In this document: positions 1 through 6,892 of the stretch, piece by piece
Numbering within the stretch: position 1 is the stretch's first letter
How the letters are laid out: the number at the start of each line of letters is the position of its first letter
DNA from: Candidatus Chromulinivoraceae bacterium
GTDB lineage: Bacteria; Patescibacteriota; Saccharimonadia; Saccharimonadales; Saccharimonadaceae
NCBI GenBank assembly: GCA_035478595.1
Contig: DATIJL010000011.1
Span: forward strand, 39,594-103,593
DNA: 64,000 nucleotides
Reading direction: 5' to 3'
The notes under the pieces: model-generated
What the model saw: the letters and a program-made list of their open reading frames with translations, nothing else
Databases searched by the model: none
Told to the model about the DNA's origin: nothing
Position numbers and translations under genes: made by a program

Positions 1-564
1 ACCAAATGTCGCCTTCGATATTTCTGCAGTAAGTATGGCGTAGTCTTGTTGCAAATCCACACCACGCCTATCCCACTTATCGGTCAATTCCTGACGGATT
101 GCTATACACGTACGCGTCTTTCAATCCATGCATCATCATAACCTTTAGCTCGATACAATGCTTTCATACGTTTCTGAGCTAACTCTGGGTCTTCGATTTC
201 TTGAACACGTTCATATCCCGTTCGGGCTAGCCAGCGTTTAAAAGGTTCTGCTTTCTTACTCGAAATGGATTGGACTAAACGAAAACCCCCTCTGTACTCC
301 AAGATAATAGCTTCTGCCTTCCACCAGGGGATCAAACGGCAACGCAAGGGGGGGTTCAATTTGAACTACCCCTTTTTCCACAGGTTCAAACAACTTTGAT
401 GATTCTTCGTCTCGATTGCGCATATTGCGAAGATACTGAGCGGGATCTGCTGAATCCGTAAGTACCGCCACAACATCGTTAATTACAAACCACCATTGGC
501 CATCGTGCAGTTGTTTACGGATTTCTTTCTTTTGAAAAATTGCTAGCTTTAATTCTTCGCTCAT
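1..564 (-). pseudogene. BRO-family (Bro-N) antirepressor-like gene, frameshifted, runs off left edge
   Basis: Read on the minus strand from an ATG at 564, the protein opens with a Bro-N-like domain (FVINDVVAVLTDSADPAQYL) and continues with conserved BRO blocks (SKKAEPFKRWLARTGYERV, RAKGYDDAWIERRVR, IRQELTDKWDRRG, YAILTAEISKATFG). These blocks are spread over all three frames. Three single-base deletions restore the family pattern: near 327-330, near 281, and near 105-111, each at a short homopolymer or doubled base. BRO proteins are DNA-binding proteins common in phages and mobile elements. The gene continues beyond position 1. Either it is a decayed gene or the base calls in homopolymers are wrong. 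The family call is firm; functional status is uncertain. Confidence 0.8.
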
Positions 565-658
565 ATCCTAATCATACCAAGAATGCCACTAGTAACAACA
601 TAGAGAGGAATTAGTTACATTTCGACCGATCATTCCTTATCCTTTTCGGGATTATACA

Positions 659-710
659 AAACAAAAAGAACTTCTTGATGAAGTTCTTTAAGTATAATGA
701 TTTTGGCTCC
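659..710. repeat. Left copy of 52-bp direct repeat (tRNA 3' end plus terminator)
   Basis: This segment aligns without gaps to 6773-6824 at a constant offset of 6114 bp, with about 45 of 52 positions identical by eye. It spans an inverted repeat and the end of a tRNA-like sequence. The right copy overlaps the intact tRNA-Asn. It may be an att-like duplication from an integrative element, or a shared tRNA-terminator cassette. Confidence 0.7.
663..689 (-). terminator. Intrinsic terminator after tRNA-like remnant
   Basis: A perfect 10-bp inverted repeat (AAAGAACTTC at 665-674, GAAGTTCTTT at 680-689) has a 5-nt loop. On the minus strand it is followed by a T-rich run. It lies just downstream of the tRNA-like sequence. 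Confidence 0.7.
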
Positions 711-780
711 CTAAAACTGGATTCGAACCAAACACTTCTACCGCCTAAATATTAGGCTCGCTTCACTTTAGCGTACCCCT
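704..780 (-). pseudogene. Degenerate tRNA-like sequence (3' half recognisable)
   Basis: On the minus strand the sequence contains a T-arm with GGTTCGAATCC, then TTAGGGA-G-CCA, which looks like an acceptor 3' strand with encoded CCA, followed by the terminator at 663-689. Upstream, a 6-bp hairpin (GCCTAA-TAT-TTAGGC) and a CGCT/AGCG hairpin resemble reduced anticodon and D arms. I could not find a 5' acceptor strand pairing with TTAGGGA at the right distance, and no normal 7-nt anticodon loop. I therefore read it as a broken tRNA or an integration scar rather than a working tRNA. Confidence 0.45.
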
Positions 781-824
781 GTAATTTGTCAAATTTTTGC
801 ATATATTTTATGTATGAAATGTGA

Positions 825-830
825 TACAAT
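825..830 (+). promoter_or_regulatory. Extended -10 promoter (TGATACAAT) of toxin-antitoxin operon
   Basis: TACAAT preceded by TGA lies 7 nt before the ATG at 838, and no Shine-Dalgarno sequence is visible. Transcription would begin at or next to the start codon, giving a leaderless mRNA. Confidence 0.55.
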
Positions 831-837
831 AAAAAGT

Positions 838-1005
838 ATGAGTAATAGCAAAGTTATTAGTGTAAATGAAAACAGCCCAGAGTTCCTGCTTGAATTGGAA
901 CGACGCATTAAACTTGCTAAAAATCCTAAAAATCGTATACCACTAAGCATAGCCAAGAAAGATATTCTAAAAAAATATCAGGAGCTTGCTGGTGCAAAAG
1001 TATAG
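838..1005 (+). CDS. Putative antitoxin of type II toxin-antitoxin pair
   Basis: A 55-residue protein that overlaps the start of the downstream ParE/RelE-like toxin. I chose ATG 838 rather than the in-frame ATG at 814 because a TACAAT box ends 7 nt before it, and 814 would lie upstream of the likely transcription start. The sequence is charged, with a basic middle (ERRIKLAKNPKNR) and a helical C-terminus (KKDILKKYQELAG), as expected for a small antitoxin that wraps its toxin. I recognise no specific family. The antitoxin role rests on size, gene order and the tight overlap, not on a motif. In known systems the antitoxin or the complex represses the shared promoter. Confidence 0.6.
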   Translation: MSNSKVISVNENSPEFLLELERRIKLAKNPKNRIPLSIAKKDILKKYQELAGAKV

Positions 1006-1339
1006 CGTCAATCTTACAGAAGATGCTGAGAACGATATTGCCGAGCTGATGGCATTTTATGAAGAGCTGGTGGATGCTAAATCGGCGGTGAAGTTTTTTG
1101 AAGAAGCGATGGAAACCGTAACGAACTTGGAAAACTTGCCACGAGCCAATGCCTTATTCAAAGACGATCCGGATGTGCGCAAAGTTCAGATGGAAAACCA
1201 CAAAGTAGCGATTGTGTATCTTGTGGATGACGATCGCTTTGAGGTTATTGCTGTTCGTGCATATCACCAGATGCAAAACCCTACCAAGTACCAAGAATCG
1301 GTACGTGAACGTATACGCAAATTGCATGAGCAGTCGTAA
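992..1339 (+). CDS. RelE/ParE-family toxin
   Basis: The chosen start is GTG 992, because AGGAG at 980-984 sits 7 nt upstream; the upstream TTG at 986 has no such spacing. The 115-residue product has the ParE/RelE layout: an N-terminal helix pair (LTEDAENDIAELMAFYEEL), a beta-rich middle (VRKVQMENHKVAIVYLVDD) and a C-terminal strand and helix (FEVIAVRAYHQ). Family members either cut mRNA in the ribosome (RelE) or poison gyrase (ParE); the sequence alone does not decide which. It overlaps the antitoxin gene by 14 nt, consistent with translational coupling. It lies in the accessory island beside phage-like and conflict-type genes. Confidence 0.8.
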   Translation: MQKYSVNLTEDAENDIAELMAFYEELVDAKSAVKFFEEAMETVTNLENLPRANALFKDDPDVRKVQMENHKVAIVYLVDDDRFEVIAVRAYHQMQNPTKYQESVRERIRKLHEQS

Positions 1340-1355
1340 CTAGTGATCTACAGGA

Positions 1356-1361
1356 TATACT
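1356..1361 (+). promoter_or_regulatory. -10 box (TATACT) of metallophosphoesterase gene
   Basis: TATACT ends 6 nt before the ATG at 1368 and no ribosome binding site is present, so the transcript is probably leaderless. Confidence 0.5.
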
Positions 1362-1367
1362 TTAGGC

Positions 1368-2009
1368 ATGGGGAAAATACTGGCAATTGGCGACATCCAC
1401 ACGAAGATCTGGATTATTGAGAAAGTCGCTAAAGTCATTAACGATTACGATAAGGTTATTTTCTGCGGTGATTACGCAGATGACTTTAGCGCTAGTCCGC
1501 AAGATACCCTAAACACCTGGAGAACTTTAAAAGATCTGCAGACTAAAAACCAAGACAAGGTCGAGCTAGTTACAGGCAATCACGACTACATATATGTCAA
1601 AGATACGCCTTCATTGCAATCAGGCTACAATCCTATCACACAAGTTTTAATCAATGCCCCAGAAAATAAAAATCTGAAAGTGTGGCTTGCTGCCCTGCCT
1701 GTTATTATCGAAATTGATGGCGTTACCTATTCTCACGCCGGCATAGCCAATGAGTGGTCTGGCCTAAAAGATGCGACTGGCCTATGGAATGACATGAGCC
1801 CTATTTGGGCAAGACCCGGGGGCAGTATTACGTACAAGGATACGCCTCAAGTTTTTGGGCATACTCCTACCGATACTTGTTATGAGGTTAAAAGTGGAGT
1901 GTGGTGTATAGATACGTTCTCTACAATGCCAGACGGTACCCCGTTTGGTGATGGATCAGTGCTGCAAATTATTGATGGCAAAAAATTCTCTAAGATATAC
2001 CTGAAATAA
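1368..2009 (+). CDS. Calcineurin-like metallophosphoesterase
   Basis: A 213-residue phosphoesterase of the calcineurin-like superfamily, with all metal-binding motifs in order: GDIH (D9, H11), GDYAD (D35), GNHD (N71, H72), SHAG, and GHTP near the C-terminus. Such enzymes use two metal ions to hydrolyse phosphomonoesters or diesters; the short form resembles protein phosphatases and nucleotide phosphoesterases, and the substrate cannot be told. It has its own -10 box and sits between the toxin gene and the primase-helicase unit on the same strand. No signal peptide is visible, so it should be cytoplasmic. It could act within the neighbouring conflict system, but that is inference from position. 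Confidence 0.85.
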   Translation: MGKILAIGDIHTKIWIIEKVAKVINDYDKVIFCGDYADDFSASPQDTLNTWRTLKDLQTKNQDKVELVTGNHDYIYVKDTPSLQSGYNPITQVLINAPENKNLKVWLAALPVIIEIDGVTYSHAGIANEWSGLKDATGLWNDMSPIWARPGGSITYKDTPQVFGHTPTDTCYEVKSGVWCIDTFSTMPDGTPFGDGSVLQIIDGKKFSKIYLK

Positions 2010-2025
2010 CATGGAGGATTCGTTG

Positions 2026-2139
2026 ATGAATACCAAAGCAATCAACGTCGCAATTCCAGGTATCCAGCTTGAAAGCATATTGACGGCTGAGGATTTGGAA
2101 GAAGTACACGTTACAGAAAGTTGCAACCATGCAGCCTAG
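2026..2139 (+). CDS. Small ORF (37 aa) coupled to primase-helicase
   Basis: ATG 2026 has a strong Shine-Dalgarno sequence (GGAGG at 2013-2017, 8 nt upstream) and encodes a 37-residue acidic peptide beginning MNTKAINVAIPGIQLES. Its last 11 nt overlap the start of the primase-helicase gene in another frame, and that gene has no good ribosome binding site of its own. This suggests translational coupling, with the peptide acting as a leader or as a small partner. I recognise no family. An in-frame ATG at 2011 is less likely because it lies upstream of the ribosome binding site. Confidence 0.5.
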   Translation: MNTKAINVAIPGIQLESILTAEDLEEVHVTESCNHAA

Positions 2140-4246
2140 CGATAAGATCAGACTTTATCGATCACTGTTCAGGGGACGTGACGACGTATTTGCGAAACGT
2201 AGCCCAACAACTGGTGCGTATTTTCCTGAGCATACGCTTAACTGGGATGAGTTCAATGCTCACAAAGCCAATGGTGGCAGAATGGCAACATTCAAAAACA
2301 AGAAACCCACGCCATTAACCGATGAAATTATCCTGAAACATCTCACCGGCCAGATTACAGTCGGTATCTATCCCATTCTTCAAGACAACACTTCATATTT
2401 TCTGGCAGCTGATTTTGATAAAGAGAATTGGCTCAAAGACTGCCAGAATTATCGGGTGGAGATAGCCAAGCTTGGTTTGTCGGCATACATAGAACGGTCA
2501 AGGTCGGGTAATGGCGGTCACGTCTGGGTTTTCTTTGAAGATGCCTATCCCTGCCACAAAGCCAGAGCTATCGGACTCGAGGTAGTGCGTAAAATCTTAA
2601 AGCTGTCGGCCTTCGATAAAGAAGCCAGCTTTGATCGACTATTCCCCAATCAGGACGCCATTGTTAAGGATGGATTTGGTAATCTGATCGCGTTACCCTT
2701 TCAGGGTGAATCAGCCCGCGGCGGCAACACGGTGTTCATTAATCCCAGCACGGGCATTCCTTACGAAGACCAGTTTGAAATCCTAAAAACTGCCCAACGC
2801 TACTCAATCAAGGAGCTTGATGCAGCCTATGATAAAGCGATTGGCGCAACGATTGATGATGTGACTGCACCTATCAAAAACAAAAGATTAAAGATTTCCG
2901 TTGGTCAAAATATCACGTTTAATAAAGCGCAGCTCAGCGGAGCACTGGTCGGTTACCTCAAAGAAGAACTTAATTTCCTAAACAGTGAATACCTCACCAA
3001 AAAGCGGTTTGGTGTATCACTGTATCAGGTGCAAAAATACTTCCGTTTGATCGATGAGTCTGATAAAACGGTGTCATTGCCTCGCGGTTTTCTCTCAAGG
3101 TTGCTCAAGTTTTTGTATGAAAATAATATTGAGTACAGCATTAGTTTTATCACGCCAAAGTTTGATAATCTCAAATTCAAAAGTCAAATCAAGCTGAACG
3201 AACAACAAGAACAGATAGTATCAGCTGCGATGATCGAAAAACAAGGCGTTATCGTCGCGCCTCCAGGCAGCGGCAAGACGATGATGGGTATGGAATTAAT
3301 TGCTCGACACAAAAAACCATCACTCGTACTTGTCCATCGTAAACAGATCCTTGATCAGTGGGTGGACCGGATCCAGCAATATCTAAATATTCCAAAGGCC
3401 CAAATCGGTCGTTACTCGAGTGCGAAAAAGTCTGCTGGCAAGGAAATTACTGTTGGACTGCTGCAAAGCTTTGCTCGCAGTAAAGATCTGAGCGAGCTAC
3501 GTGACAAATTCGGCACGATTATTGTCGATGAGTGTCATCATATTCCTGCCAAAACGTTCAGGGATGTTATCGCCAGCCTTAACCCCGAATTTCTGTATGG
3601 CTTAACAGCTACACCTAAAAGAAAGCACAATGACGAGCAGCTTATCTATGTTTATATTGGCGATATTATCGCGAATATGGCTGACTTTAAGGATATCAAT
3701 CAACCCGCAACTAGCAAGAAGTTTGACGTTGTCATTCGAGAAACAGGCCTAGCTATCCCCTTTAACTGGAAAACTGATGCTTTTGATCTGGTGGCCAAGG
3801 TTATTAGCTACGACACGAAGCGAAATGAGCTCGTAATCAAAGACGCGCTTAAACAAGTTGCCCTAAAGCGTAAGGTGTTGGTGCTCAGCGAGCGCAAAGA
3901 ACACCTGAAGATTTTAGAGCTATACCTCAAAGGTCAATGCGAAACGATGATCTTTACTGGTGACGACTCGGCAGCCAGTCGTACATCTAAGTTGGCGCAA
4001 ATTGAGGCTGGACATTATCAAGTGTTATTGGCTACGGGCCAGATAATTGGTGAAGGTATGCATGTACCTAATATCCAGGCATTGATCTTCGCTTTCCCGT
4101 TCGCCCTTGAGGCCAAAACCACCCAATACGTCGGTCGGCTCATGCACAGTGATAGCCCAAAAGTATTAATCGACTACCACGACAAGCAGATTCCCTTTTT
4201 AGATCGGCAATTCAAACAGCGTAAACGGGTATATAACAAGCTTTAG
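2129..4246 (+). CDS. Archaeo-eukaryotic primase - SF2 helicase fusion (TOTE conflict-type)
   Basis: A 705-residue two-part enzyme. The N-terminal ~230 residues match the archaeo-eukaryotic primase (AEP) domain of TOTE conflict systems: the catalytic hhhDhD motif (AADFD, D95/D97), the sxH motif (SGNGGHVW, H131), and LIALPFQ near residue 190. After a helical linker comes a superfamily 2 helicase: Walker A APPGSGKT (377-384), DECH (467-470), TAT (493-495), and a C-terminal RecA domain with QYVGRLMHS as motif VI. Primases make short nucleic acids and SF2 helicases remodel duplexes; in TOTE systems the pair is thought to act against invading DNA. No nuclease domain is fused. A pRiA4b ORF-3-like gene follows 18 nt downstream. 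Confidence 0.85.
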   Translation: MQPSDKIRLYRSLFRGRDDVFAKRSPTTGAYFPEHTLNWDEFNAHKANGGRMATFKNKKPTPLTDEIILKHLTGQITVGIYPILQDNTSYFLAADFDKENWLKDCQNYRVEIAKLGLSAYIERSRSGNGGHVWVFFEDAYPCHKARAIGLEVVRKILKLSAFDKEASFDRLFPNQDAIVKDGFGNLIALPFQGESARGGNTVFINPSTGIPYEDQFEILKTAQRYSIKELDAAYDKAIGATIDDVTAPIKNKRLKISVGQNITFNKAQLSGALVGYLKEELNFLNSEYLTKKRFGVSLYQVQKYFRLIDESDKTVSLPRGFLSRLLKFLYENNIEYSISFITPKFDNLKFKSQIKLNEQQEQIVSAAMIEKQGVIVAPPGSGKTMMGMELIARHKKPSLVLVHRKQILDQWVDRIQQYLNIPKAQIGRYSSAKKSAGKEITVGLLQSFARSKDLSELRDKFGTIIVDECHHIPAKTFRDVIASLNPEFLYGLTATPKRKHNDEQLIYVYIGDIIANMADFKDINQPATSKKFDVVIRETGLAIPFNWKTDAFDLVAKVISYDTKRNELVIKDALKQVALKRKVLVLSERKEHLKILELYLKGQCETMIFTGDDSAASRTSKLAQIEAGHYQVLLATGQIIGEGMHVPNIQALIFAFPFALEAKTTQYVGRLMHSDSPKVLIDYHDKQIPFLDRQFKQRKRVYNKL

Positions 4247-4264
4247 ATTCAAAGGAGTTAATAT

Positions 4265-4987
4265 ATGACCACACAAACTAACGGTTACCCCATAGAATTA
4301 CTGCAACTTAAGATTTCTCTACGCGATTCACGCCCACCTATCTGGCGGCGAATACACGTTCGAGCCGACTGCTCGTTTTGGGACTTGCATAGCATCATTC
4401 AGGATCTATTCGGGTGGGAAGATTGTCACCTGCATGGTTTTGCCACAGCCTCAAAAATTAACGAGGATAGGTACATACTGGAAGTATTAGATATTGACCC
4501 CAGCTCGGAGATTGAGCATGCTGGCGCACCGTTGCCTCAAAAATTCCCATATCCACACAATTACTACTGTGATGAGCGTGCTGAGAAGTTAGGAGTATGG
4601 ATAACGCCGGAACGCAAAAAAATGTACTATACCTATGACTTTGGTGATAGCTGGGTGCATGAAATAGTGCTGGAAAAGACGATAACCGTCGAAAGTATGG
4701 GGCTAGCCTTCTGCAAATATCTCGGCGGTAAACGTCAAGGTGTCGAAGAGGATAGCCGAGGTGAGTCTATCCTCGATTGTACTGCAATTATCAAGGCTGC
4801 TACTAGTCCAAGGGGCGAACATTGGAAGGCGATCGTTGGCTACTTTGGTAGCGAACCAAAGGCTAGGCAATATCTGGCCAAAGCAGAAAGACTCTCAAAA
4901 TTGTCCGCTCCTGATGAAATTATCTTTTCTGATTCACTGAAGCGCTACAAGGACGATGATGCAACTGGTATGTTCGATCATTCATAG
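4265..4987 (+). CDS. Plasmid pRiA4b ORF-3-like protein
   Basis: 240 residues. The N-terminal ~185 match the pRiA4b ORF-3-like family (PF07929): LKISLRDSRPPIWRRIHV at the start, LFGWEDCHLHGF, and the hallmark YDFGDSWVHEI in the middle. The biochemical role of the family is unknown; members occur on plasmids and beside mobile genes. AAAGGAG lies 8 nt before the ATG, and the gene follows the primase-helicase by 18 nt on the same strand, so the two are very likely one operon. The C-terminal ~50 residues are helical and unassigned. Its pairing with the AEP-helicase is the main reason to suspect a conflict role. Confidence 0.85.
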   Translation: MTTQTNGYPIELLQLKISLRDSRPPIWRRIHVRADCSFWDLHSIIQDLFGWEDCHLHGFATASKINEDRYILEVLDIDPSSEIEHAGAPLPQKFPYPHNYYCDERAEKLGVWITPERKKMYYTYDFGDSWVHEIVLEKTITVESMGLAFCKYLGGKRQGVEEDSRGESILDCTAIIKAATSPRGEHWKAIVGYFGSEPKARQYLAKAERLSKLSAPDEIIFSDSLKRYKDDDATGMFDHS

Positions 4988-4992
4988 GTCCT

Positions 4993-5127
4993 CTACTCTT
5001 CGTTATGTAAAACCGGCCCATATTCTTTCTGTAAAAGCCCACCGTACGGTACCAGTTCGGGACTGTTTCTTTGCATTAACATCTTAGCATGAGTGTTTTT
5101 TATTGCCTCAAATGAGGGACTGGTCAT
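4993..5127 (-). CDS. Small hypothetical protein (44 aa)
   Basis: A 44-residue minus-strand ORF starting MTSPSFEAIKNTHAKMLMQ and ending with GLLQKEYGPVLHNEE. The composition looks protein-like rather than random, and it is the last reading frame of the leftward unknown operon. The ribosome binding site is weak (AGG 4-5 nt upstream). It ends 5 nt from the convergent pRiA4b-like gene. No family is recognised. It could be a real small protein or the tail of a decayed gene. Confidence 0.4.
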   Translation of the reverse strand: MTSPSFEAIKNTHAKMLMQRNSPELVPYGGLLQKEYGPVLHNEE

Positions 5128-5190
5128 GGAACCTGGTCACCTAATCTAGCTGCTTGGTCTGACTCTCACTAGTGGACATACTTCGCAACT

Positions 5191-5931
5191 CTAACGACGC
5201 TTCTTCGACTCCTGAATTGAATCCTTATATGCCTGATCCTGCAAAGCGACTAGTTTTTTAGCGCTCATAAATAATCCCTTCTTAACACGTTGTGCAGCAA
5301 GATTAGCTTCACCTTCAGTACGGTATGCCTCATCTTCTGCGTGAATAAACTCAGCCTTTTCTTGTCGGGCTATACTCTTGCTAATATCACCAAGGCCGAC
5401 CGCAACACCAGGTATGGAGTTTGGCTCCACGTCATACGGCGACGAAACATCCATTGCTACTACTCGCGTAAGCTTTGGTCCAAATTTATCAACCAGCAGC
5501 TTCATATCTTCAGGGAGGTTATCCACATCTACGTCAGTGACGTCATAGATAGCGTCCTCTGGTGCGTCGTCGGACCTGAACTTAAGCGTGCGGCGCTGCC
5601 ATTCAGGAGGTATTGTTATATCTACGATCTTATCGTCAAATAAAATTCGACACGTTTTGTCTACCTTAGGTTCTTCCCACCAGCTTGGCGTATCACCTTT
5701 CTTGCGTGCGATCATAATAAGTTCACCACCAGCTTCTATGTACGATCGGGCCTTTGAAAAACCTTGCTCCTCGCCATCGGCATTAACAACGTCGGCTAGC
5801 TCTTGTAGCTCATCAAGAGAGTGTGGCGTTTCGCCACTCCTAAAGCGATCGCTCAGGGAATTGAGCAGTTCAGTTGAGGTAGGAGATTTTTCTTGCGTAT
5901 TGTGTTGGGGGGATGTATGTTCGTGTTGCAT
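5191..5931 (-). CDS. Hypothetical protein, second gene of unknown operon
   Basis: The chosen start is ATG 5931, one nt after the stop of the upstream gene and preceded by AAAGG; a longer in-frame start at 6027 would overlap that gene by about 95 nt. The 246-residue product is soluble and acidic, with a low-complexity N-terminus (HTSPQHNTQEKSPTSTE), a mixed alpha/beta middle (YIEAGGELIMIARKKG, VDITIPPEWQRRTLKF) and a basic coiled C-terminus. It has no signal peptide or membrane segment. The motif DAIYDVTDVDV loosely echoes DMLYDVTHFYGV in the upstream protein, so the two may share a domain. No function can be assigned. Confidence 0.6.
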   Translation of the reverse strand: MQHEHTSPQHNTQEKSPTSTELLNSLSDRFRSGETPHSLDELQELADVVNADGEEQGFSKARSYIEAGGELIMIARKKGDTPSWWEEPKVDKTCRILFDDKIVDITIPPEWQRRTLKFRSDDAPEDAIYDVTDVDVDNLPEDMKLLVDKFGPKLTRVVAMDVSSPYDVEPNSIPGVAVGLGDISKSIARQEKAEFIHAEDEAYRTEGEANLAAQRVKKGLFMSAKKLVALQDQAYKDSIQESKKRR

Positions 5932-5932
5932 A

Positions 5933-6661
5933 CTATGCCTTTCTTCGCCTAATGCCGATCTTTCCAAGAGCACGCTTAACGAACGTGTCTTCGGGATCTC
6001 CCTTGAACTCTTTACGGGTAATGTCACCCTCTAATCTAGCATCTTCAAGTGTTATTGGATCTCCGGAAAGCTTTTCGGGGGTAACTAGCAGATTTGTTAA
6101 AGATTCTGGAATGTTAGGATTAAATTCCCCACTTTCCGTATGAATAATTGCAGGAACACCAGTCTCGTGCTGAACGTAGCTAAGAGTCCTCTCGCTTTTT
6201 CTCAGATTACCATCAGCCTTATCCGTCAGGCTAGATACAACCAAGATACCCTTTGCACCCTGGGTTCGTAGAAATTCCTCATGGCTATCTGACGGAAGGC
6301 CAAGTCTATCCCTAGTGCCAATAATCCTAACACGATCCTCATCGCTAAAGGTGCGTTCCCAGGCTCGGACTGTGTAACGTGCAGTTCCTTGGGGCAGTTC
6401 CGTCTCAACACCGTAGAAGTGCGTCACGTCATACAACATGTCATCGTCAAAAGGAGATTCAATAATCTGCGTCCCAGGCTCGACAGTTGCGCCACGTTCG
6501 AGTAATAATTGCATGATATTAACCACTTCTGGATTGCTCTCTACGCCGTCCTCTGTTTCGAGAGAATGCAGTTTCGCTCGCTCAAGCTCATGCGAGGGAA
6601 CTCGATCTGAGCCAGGATTATGATTTGGCTGTTCGGTTGTAGGCAGGAAGTCTCGTTTCAT
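5933..6661 (-). CDS. Hypothetical protein, first gene of unknown operon
   Basis: A 242-residue soluble protein (MKRDFLPTTEQPNHN...). It has a polar, probably disordered N-terminus, a middle with strands and helices (TARYTVRAWERTFSDEDRV; GAKGILVVSSLTDKADG) and a basic C-terminus (KRALGKIGIRRRKA). I recognise no family or catalytic motif. It is followed by the 246-residue gene with a 1-nt gap and then by a 44-residue ORF, all leftward. The unit lies just inside the direct-repeat boundary next to tRNA-Asn, so it probably belongs to the mobile or accessory segment. No clear Shine-Dalgarno sequence precedes the ATG. Confidence 0.6.
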   Translation of the reverse strand: MKRDFLPTTEQPNHNPGSDRVPSHELERAKLHSLETEDGVESNPEVVNIMQLLLERGATVEPGTQIIESPFDDDMLYDVTHFYGVETELPQGTARYTVRAWERTFSDEDRVRIIGTRDRLGLPSDSHEEFLRTQGAKGILVVSSLTDKADGNLRKSERTLSYVQHETGVPAIIHTESGEFNPNIPESLTNLLVTPEKLSGDPITLEDARLEGDITRKEFKGDPEDTFVKRALGKIGIRRRKA

Positions 6662-6772: not shown

Positions 6773-6824
6773 AAACAAAAAGAACTTCTTGATGAAGCTC
6801 TTTAAGCATAAGTTCTATGGCTCC
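6773..6824. repeat. Right copy of 52-bp direct repeat
   Basis: Partner of 659-710, ungapped, at a constant offset of 6114 bp. It spans the terminator and the 3' end of the intact tRNA-Asn. Together the copies bracket about 6.1 kb of accessory genes. Confidence 0.7.
6777..6803 (-). terminator. Intrinsic terminator of tRNA-Asn
   Basis: A 10-bp stem with one G-U wobble (6779-6788 with 6794-6803) and a 5-nt loop, followed on the minus strand by a T-rich run. It lies 14 nt downstream of the tRNA's CCA. Confidence 0.7.
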
Positions 6825-6892
6825 GGCAGCTGGGCTCGAACCAGCGACCTAATCGTTAACAGCGATCCGCTCTACCACTGAGCTATGCCGGA
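6818..6892 (-). tRNA. tRNA-Asn (anticodon GUU)
   Basis: A complete cloverleaf on the minus strand: acceptor TCCGGCA paired with TGCCGGA; D stem GCTC/GAGC with loop AGTGGTA; anticodon stem GATCG/CGATT with loop CTGTTAA (anticodon GTT); T arm GCTGG-TTCGAGC-CCAGC; discriminator G and encoded CCA. A terminator follows. tRNA 3' ends are common integration targets, and this one carries the right-hand direct repeat of the island. Confidence 0.97.

Follow-up and report, generated by a model that had tools for sequence, protein, structure and literature searches.

A Fic gene relic ahead of a primase-helicase gene in a Patescibacteria genome points to probable loss of a recurrent neighbour

The DNA considered here, hereafter the window, is a stretch of 64,000 nucleotides (nt) from contig DATIJL010000011.1 of a Candidatus Chromulinivoraceae bacterium (Patescibacteriota), whose genome comprises 1.14 Mb in 19 contigs and whose closest relatives, judged by the gene in question, are Saccharibacteria metagenome-assembled genomes. 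That gene encodes an archaeo-eukaryotic primase (AEP) domain fused to an XPB-like superfamily 2 (SF2) helicase. Helicases of this family lie repeatedly behind a Fic gene in Patescibacteria, and the bases directly ahead of the window gene hold a relic of a Fic 3' end. On balance, we favour a model where the window represents a module from which recombination, some 30 nt ahead of the helicase start, removed the usual Fic effector.

The Fic neighbourhood was observed in loci of relatives in which open reading frames (ORFs) were called: eight close-relative loci, then 14 stretches (one being the G004 stump and one the same sequence as L008), then seven more. Fic is the nearest upstream ORF in 8/25 helicase loci, at a distance of 0–79 nt (L003, 5 nt; L009, 2; L004, 32; L047, 27; L050, 0; L054, 6; L057, 79; L058, 27), compared with 1/247 other ORFs from the same loci. 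A Fic ORF was counted when it exceeded 250 amino acids (aa), was co-directional and lay within 100 nt, and the comparison ORFs were of at least 100 aa. Among the 25 are L003, L004 and L009, three Fic cases retrieved with the window protein as query, and the contig-edge loci L048, L055 and L090; L010, which has a helicase stump of less than 100 aa, is excluded. L053, the same contig sequence as L008, belongs to the 19 loci of the genome survey and not to the 25; neither count includes L091, whose protein is divergent and matches weakly, or the stump loci L059 and L092. In the survey loci alone Fic is directly upstream in 5/19 as against 0/175 other ORFs, and five of the 14 genomes over the profile cut-off are Fic-adjacent, with a chance P of 3.6e-7 that assumes independence and eight Fic genes (the largest count listed) per 700 genes (an assumed number). 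Looser arrangements also occur, with Fic 887 nt upstream of the helicase in L056 and convergent with it at 1 nt in L052. In L006 and L007 the order is Fic, a 124-aa ORF, helicase; the intervening ORF is conserved (2820–3194 in L006 and 1260–1634 in L007) and the L006 copy has no Pfam match.

The identity of the upstream gene as Fic is confirmed by Pfam for 12 of the relatives' proteins. The eight adjacent Fic genes fall into six groups, with 22–38% identity in best local alignments: A (L003 and L009, and beyond the eight also L006, L007, L010 and L092), B (L004, and also L059), C (L047 and L058), D (L050), E (L054) and F (L057). L052 and L056 form a seventh group. The active-site motif reads HPFxDGNGR in groups A–D, HPYLDGNGR in E and HPFTNGNKR in F, and groups A, C, D and E carry near the N-terminus an S/TxxxEG motif, which we take to be self-inhibitory. 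Group A Fic matches solved Fic chains including Sofic, and Fic proteins of the relatives' kind are predicted to AMPylate proteins. Sofic is described as arresting infected cells by AMPylation and as restrained by a small downstream antitoxin (PMC12249575). The relatives' upstream Fic proteins share the HPFxDGNGR site of such AMP-transferases, but the gene downstream of them is a primase-helicase rather than a small antitoxin. Further upstream, L003 (2229–5154) and L009 (1775–3128) have in common a short Fic/Doc-like gene with the motif HPFxDGNKR, the small partner of this gene and a nucleotidyltransferase-like ORF of 96 aa; by their predicted gene content, the surroundings of these two Fic-helicase loci are toxin-antitoxin-rich.

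No Fic ORF lies directly upstream of the window helicase, and the window itself thus lacks the Fic-AEP-helicase pair. What it retains is the 3' end of one. The 28 nt preceding the helicase ATG (2101–2128) are identical to L009 at 26 of 28 bases, and the relic frame runs into CAA where the L009 Fic has its stop TAA, two nt ahead of its helicase ATG. The translated relic agrees with the C-terminal consensus of group A Fic proteins, G[LQ]G[RS][ATS]TRYRK[LIN]. Local DNA scores of the window's upstream sequence are 28 to L009 and 12–17 to other loci. With BLOSUM62, the L009 Fic tail scores 54 at the relic and below 38 at all other places in the six-frame translation of the 64 kb, while the L003 tail scores 49 at the relic and 38 at two other places. 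Upstream of eight other Fic-less helicases, tblastn revealed no Fic relic at E 0.1. In the helicase tree the window protein groups with that of L009, then L003 (SH-aLRT branch supports of 99 and 99; both group A Fic loci), then L004 (group B; 92). Because the scar matches group A and the window helicase groups with group A loci, the simplest reading would be that the window lineage lost a Fic of group A. Two other matches to the Fic profile PF02661 are present elsewhere in the window genome, and no group A Fic was found there with the L009 Fic as query, in a search that had no positive control.

The position of the break is recorded by a 37-aa ORF lying across it. Its codons 1–25 (2026–2100) are common with a 54-aa protein, P0242, which then diverges, and its other codons are Fic 3' end in a different frame. 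Queried with a 42-aa form (2011–2139), a database of 5.8 billion proteins returned two candidates, P0241 and P0242. P0241 repeats this junction ORF at 93% identity on 8 contigs, and the join is therefore not an assembly error. P0242 probably belongs to an ORF that follows the phosphatase gene elsewhere, because its longest contig matches in size (1,992) and source that of P0124, an 87%-identical relative of the phosphatase encoded upstream of the window helicase. Read in this way, the 37-aa ORF begins as a phosphatase-linked ORF and passes, within 2091–2100, into an out-of-frame Fic 3' end. The preliminary description of this DNA had correctly noted a small ORF with a strong ribosome binding site overlapping the helicase start, and had proposed its peptide as a regulator. 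It is not an ordinary small gene but two unrelated sequences joined, and its sole match in the eight close-relative loci is its last 14 residues, found in the Fic 3' end of L009. A conserved regulator is rejected, the only two database candidates being one copy of the same junction and one protein sharing 25 residues.

The junction may nevertheless matter for expression. Relatives' helicases start 0–32 nt after the Fic stop, which makes translational coupling of the helicase to the preceding gene likely. For 13/25 helicases, a co-directional ORF (70 aa or more) ends between −20 and +35 nt from the start, compared with 70/262 other ORFs, and a Shine-Dalgarno-like site precedes 2/29 helicase starts. 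In the window, the junction ORF, with its good ribosome site and its end inside the helicase start, would now supply the coupling, and the peptide itself need not function. By the recombination the helicase would have come to lie downstream of an ApaH/PPP-type phosphatase gene and of the opening 25 codons from an ORF that is probably this gene's downstream neighbour.

Several observations weigh against Fic loss, against translational coupling or against a Fic-helicase module altogether. The relic is short and its tblastn E values are weak (0.035 and 0.055); arrival of the helicase together with a Fic stub would leave the same picture as loss of Fic, and the two are equally compatible with the scar. 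As to coupling, many genes of the window lack a Shine-Dalgarno site, 20/55 having one by this measure, and L004 has GAGG before a second ATG, such that the longest-ORF start may be wrong in some loci. Most directly, 17/25 helicases have no Fic directly upstream, and none of 17 inspected plasmid regions has an adjacent Fic. These regions were chosen among 40 of 418 records and include three near copies (Arcobacter/Aliarcobacter); relatives on plasmids number 91 records at 29–32% identity and a query coverage of 80% or more.

The neighbours found in place of Fic are varied. L008 has VapBC-like genes upstream, and VapBC-like genes are also neighbours in L010; L049, L086 and L087 have methyltransferase or restriction/nuclease genes, and L088 a PIF1-like helicase (the VapBC, Vsr, methyltransferase and PIF1 names in these six loci were read by eye from sequence). 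The upstream proteins of L051, L052 and L089 have no recognised identity, nothing clear precedes the helicase in L005 and L046, and in L051 a Pfam-confirmed AbiEii gene is convergent with it. In 7/17 plasmid regions the gene directly upstream is annotated as toxin-type: HigB plus a regulator (25 nt), three near copies of AbiEii at 6 nt each (L064, L094 and L101, the helicase of L094 being split into two annotated ORFs), HipA twice (460 and 289 nt) and NYN once (74 nt). Pairing of the helicase with various effectors is one possibility and simple residence in defence islands another, and the restriction-modification, VapBC, HigBA, AbiE and HipBA neighbours fit mere co-residence equally well. A self-sufficient anti-invader or repair gene drifting through defence islands, with Fic and other toxins as common residents and no two-gene module, is thus a possibility to be taken seriously, if a less probable one in our judgement. 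Fic is indeed widespread (255/379 phylum genomes), and on a tree of 30 helicases its adjacency requires at least six changes. Against mere co-residence speak the excess of Fic directly upstream of the helicase over other ORFs of the same loci and its recurrence as six dissimilar groups. The Fic label is also less scattered on the tree than in most shuffles, which average 8.6 changes and are as low in 9/500, the window being counted as Fic on account of its scar.

Helicase decay, a frequent event, offers a view of the dependence between the two genes. The helicase is broken in five loci (L058, L059, L092, L010 and L090) by truncation, reduction to an end stump or internal deletion. That the helicase serves as an obligatory antitoxin of the predicted Fic toxin is improbable, since Fic is intact and full-length beside the broken helicases of L058, where the helicase ends after about 111 residues, L059 and L092. 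Separately, a similar-looking pair of ORFs of about 110 aa lies near the AEP-helicase in L003 (10252–10922) and L046 (22–587), on opposite sides and in distant loci.

The genes that now flank the window helicase are listed in Table 1. The preliminary description had seen in them a conflict system, in which the pRiA4b-like protein or the metallophosphoesterase supplied the effector and the small peptide the regulation, and had made recurrence in related genomes the check. The genes themselves are as described: the pRiA4b-like gene follows the helicase stop after 18 nt, and the phosphoesterase and a ParE-like toxin lie upstream, the antitoxin being assigned from its position only. The named partners do not recur. 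Neither the PRiA4 gene nor the phosphatase has a tblastn match in the eight close-relative loci (for PRiA4 the downstream side is readable in L003–L007 and L010, extends to only 0.5 kb in L008 and is absent in L009). PF07929 is present in 8/379 phylum genomes and PF22548, the family of the primase domain, in 16/379, and both together only in the genome of the window; the phosphatase occurs in the window's own genome alone among 151 family genomes. The PRiA4 gene is a local, non-recurrent neighbour and is rejected as a constant partner, and the fold and motifs of the phosphatase, those of the PPP/ApaH type, reject it as a nuclease-type effector. A conflict role as such is plausible, and the expectation of an effector encoded beside the helicase fits the recurrent Fic. 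That the window strain has newly assembled a functional operon from the helicase, one of these proteins and the peptide is unlikely, even though the genes concerned are all co-directional, a ribosome site and a short gap precede the PRiA4 gene, and other samples, represented by P0241, retain the junction ORF. Against it stand the lack of recurrence, a phosphatase rather than nuclease fold, and a 37-aa ORF that is half Fic fossil.

Table 1. Features of the helicase neighbourhood in the window
Feature	Position	Strand	Basis
63-aa ORF overlapping the toxin gene, probable antitoxin	814–1005	+	Position only; no Pfam match
ParE-like toxin	986–1339	+	PF05016, 27.9 bits (cut-off 23)
Metallophosphoesterase, PPP/ApaH phosphatase fold; now adjoins helicase upstream	1368–2009	+	
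Shine-Dalgarno-like GGAGG before 37-aa ORF	2013–2017	+	Sequence, pattern check
37-aa junction ORF; stop inside first codons of helicase gene	2026–2139	+	Protein search, alignment
Fic 3'-end relic, about 12 codons, GFGRSTRYRKL in Fic frame	2091–2126	+	DNA and protein comparison
AEP-TOTE primase-polymerase fused to XPB-like SF2 helicase, 705 aa	2129–4246	+	Pfam, alignment, structure comparison
Shine-Dalgarno-like AAAGGAG before PRiA4 gene	4251–4257	+	Sequence, pattern check
pRiA4b ORF-3-like gene, single copy in genome	4265–4987	+	PF07929 PRiA4_ORF3, 126.8 bits

The primase-helicase itself appears intact, in agreement with the preliminary description, which had recognised both its AEP domain and a complete SF2 helicase. 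AEP-TOTE (PF22548) spans residues 5–231 with 243.1 bits against a cut-off of 27, placing the domain in this family, and the helicase part covers approximately residues 354–676 with ResIII, DEAD and Helicase_C Pfam matches. The catalytic residues D95, D97 and H131, which form the DxD and sxH motifs, are invariant across a 28-sequence alignment with relatives at 54–86% identity, and the Walker A, DECH, TAT and QxxGR helicase motifs are all preserved. Relative to its relatives the helicase has a nonsynonymous divergence (dN) of 0.12–0.23 and a saturated synonymous divergence (dS), hence no dN/dS ratio. Proteins of this kind are abundant, 7,999/8,000 scored candidates for AEP-TOTE primase-helicases passing E 0.001. 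An origin as a phage gene is rejected: no phage record covers at least 80% of the length, and a scan of viral contigs gave one weak locus with 34% identity over residues 78–191. Also very improbable is a role in replicating an integrated plasmid or satellite. The plasmid relatives might speak for it, as might a copy on one E. coli plasmid with AlpA and a Gp2-like gene nearby, but no integrase, relaxase or origin is seen beside the helicase, and its closest solved helicases, XPB and RadD, are repair proteins.

Several known systems share features with the protein. Its nearest solved relatives in the helicase part are XPBII/XPB by sequence (6p4f, E 6.8e-23) and, for an AlphaFold model (predicted local distance difference test score, pLDDT, 81.1; predicted template modelling score, pTM, 0.57), the XPB-Bax1 complex (6p4o, E 1.6e-23). 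In archaea XPB/XPBII is found with the Bax1 nuclease, but the window helicase is fused to a primase domain and has no Bax1-like nuclease beside it. In line with the preliminary description, which had proposed a system without a nuclease, Pfam found no nuclease domain, nor any Cas domain, in the nine proteins scanned (256–6661). No hidden nuclease appeared among the 50 matches listed for the helicase model, which at a pTM of 0.57 is not evidence of absence. The AEP part is nearest by sequence to 7nqd/7nqf (E about 1e-8), which we take to be CRISPR-associated primase-polymerases (Prim-Pols), the PDB entry title being TPR_REGION domain-containing protein. The PADLOC PrimPol profile agrees at 205 bits; NCBIfam PrimPol_Msp, by contrast, gives 74.3 bits, short of its cut-off of 200. 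TOTE conflict systems are named for TPR, OB, TBP and Effector in PMC12458937, citing Aravind, Iyer and Burroughs 2022. The Pfam family of the window primase domain takes its name from them, but the recurrent partner of the helicase's relatives is Fic. The TBP profile PF00352 has no match in the window genome (0/1), the control giving matches in 4/14 genomes, and TPR and OB (cold-shock) components are absent from the nine proteins of 256–6661, the part of the genome searched for them. The likeness to a TOTE conflict system is confined to the shared primase domain. For the Fic-AEP-helicase pair, no paper was found in the open-access literature, most subscription journals being outside this coverage; the association and the scar are apparently new within that literature, which is not proof of novelty.

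Towards the edges of the neighbourhood, a Bro-N-like gene on the minus strand (102–564) is seemingly split into overlapping frames, 256–564 and 102–359, and is pseudogene-like. The frame 102–359 resembles by eye the C-terminal part of a Bro-like ORF in L051 (4974–5651), which is intact and lies 640 nt upstream of the AEP-helicase of that locus. A tRNA-Asn gene (6818–6892, minus strand), the sole tRNA in the window, lies about 1.8 kb beyond the PRiA4 gene and is a possible integration spot of an island.

How an intact module might work can be outlined. Fic is predicted to AMPylate a host protein and thereby stop growth, while the target of the primase-helicase, an XPB-like protein headed by a CRISPR-type Prim-Pol, would be invader DNA, which it would sense or whose replication it would block. 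The division of labour that we favour is one where the helicase meets replication intermediates of the invader and Fic arrests the cell. Defence-system density in Patescibacteria has been reported as high (PMC12259885). More tentatively, we speculate that Patescibacteria possess a two-gene immune module, in which a swappable growth-arrest effector, mostly an autoinhibited Fic, is translated in series with a constant Prim-Pol/XPB-like helicase able to recognise replicating invader DNA or to block it. Swaps would take place at a hot junction before the start codon, and the window may have caught one that left the Fic stub behind. With a recurrent Fic partner that gives way to unrelated Fic groups or to other toxins, an effector combined with a DNA-acting helicase becomes a testable reading. 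The scar would show such partner swapping at base resolution, and it cautions against taking an operon of neighbours as one system.

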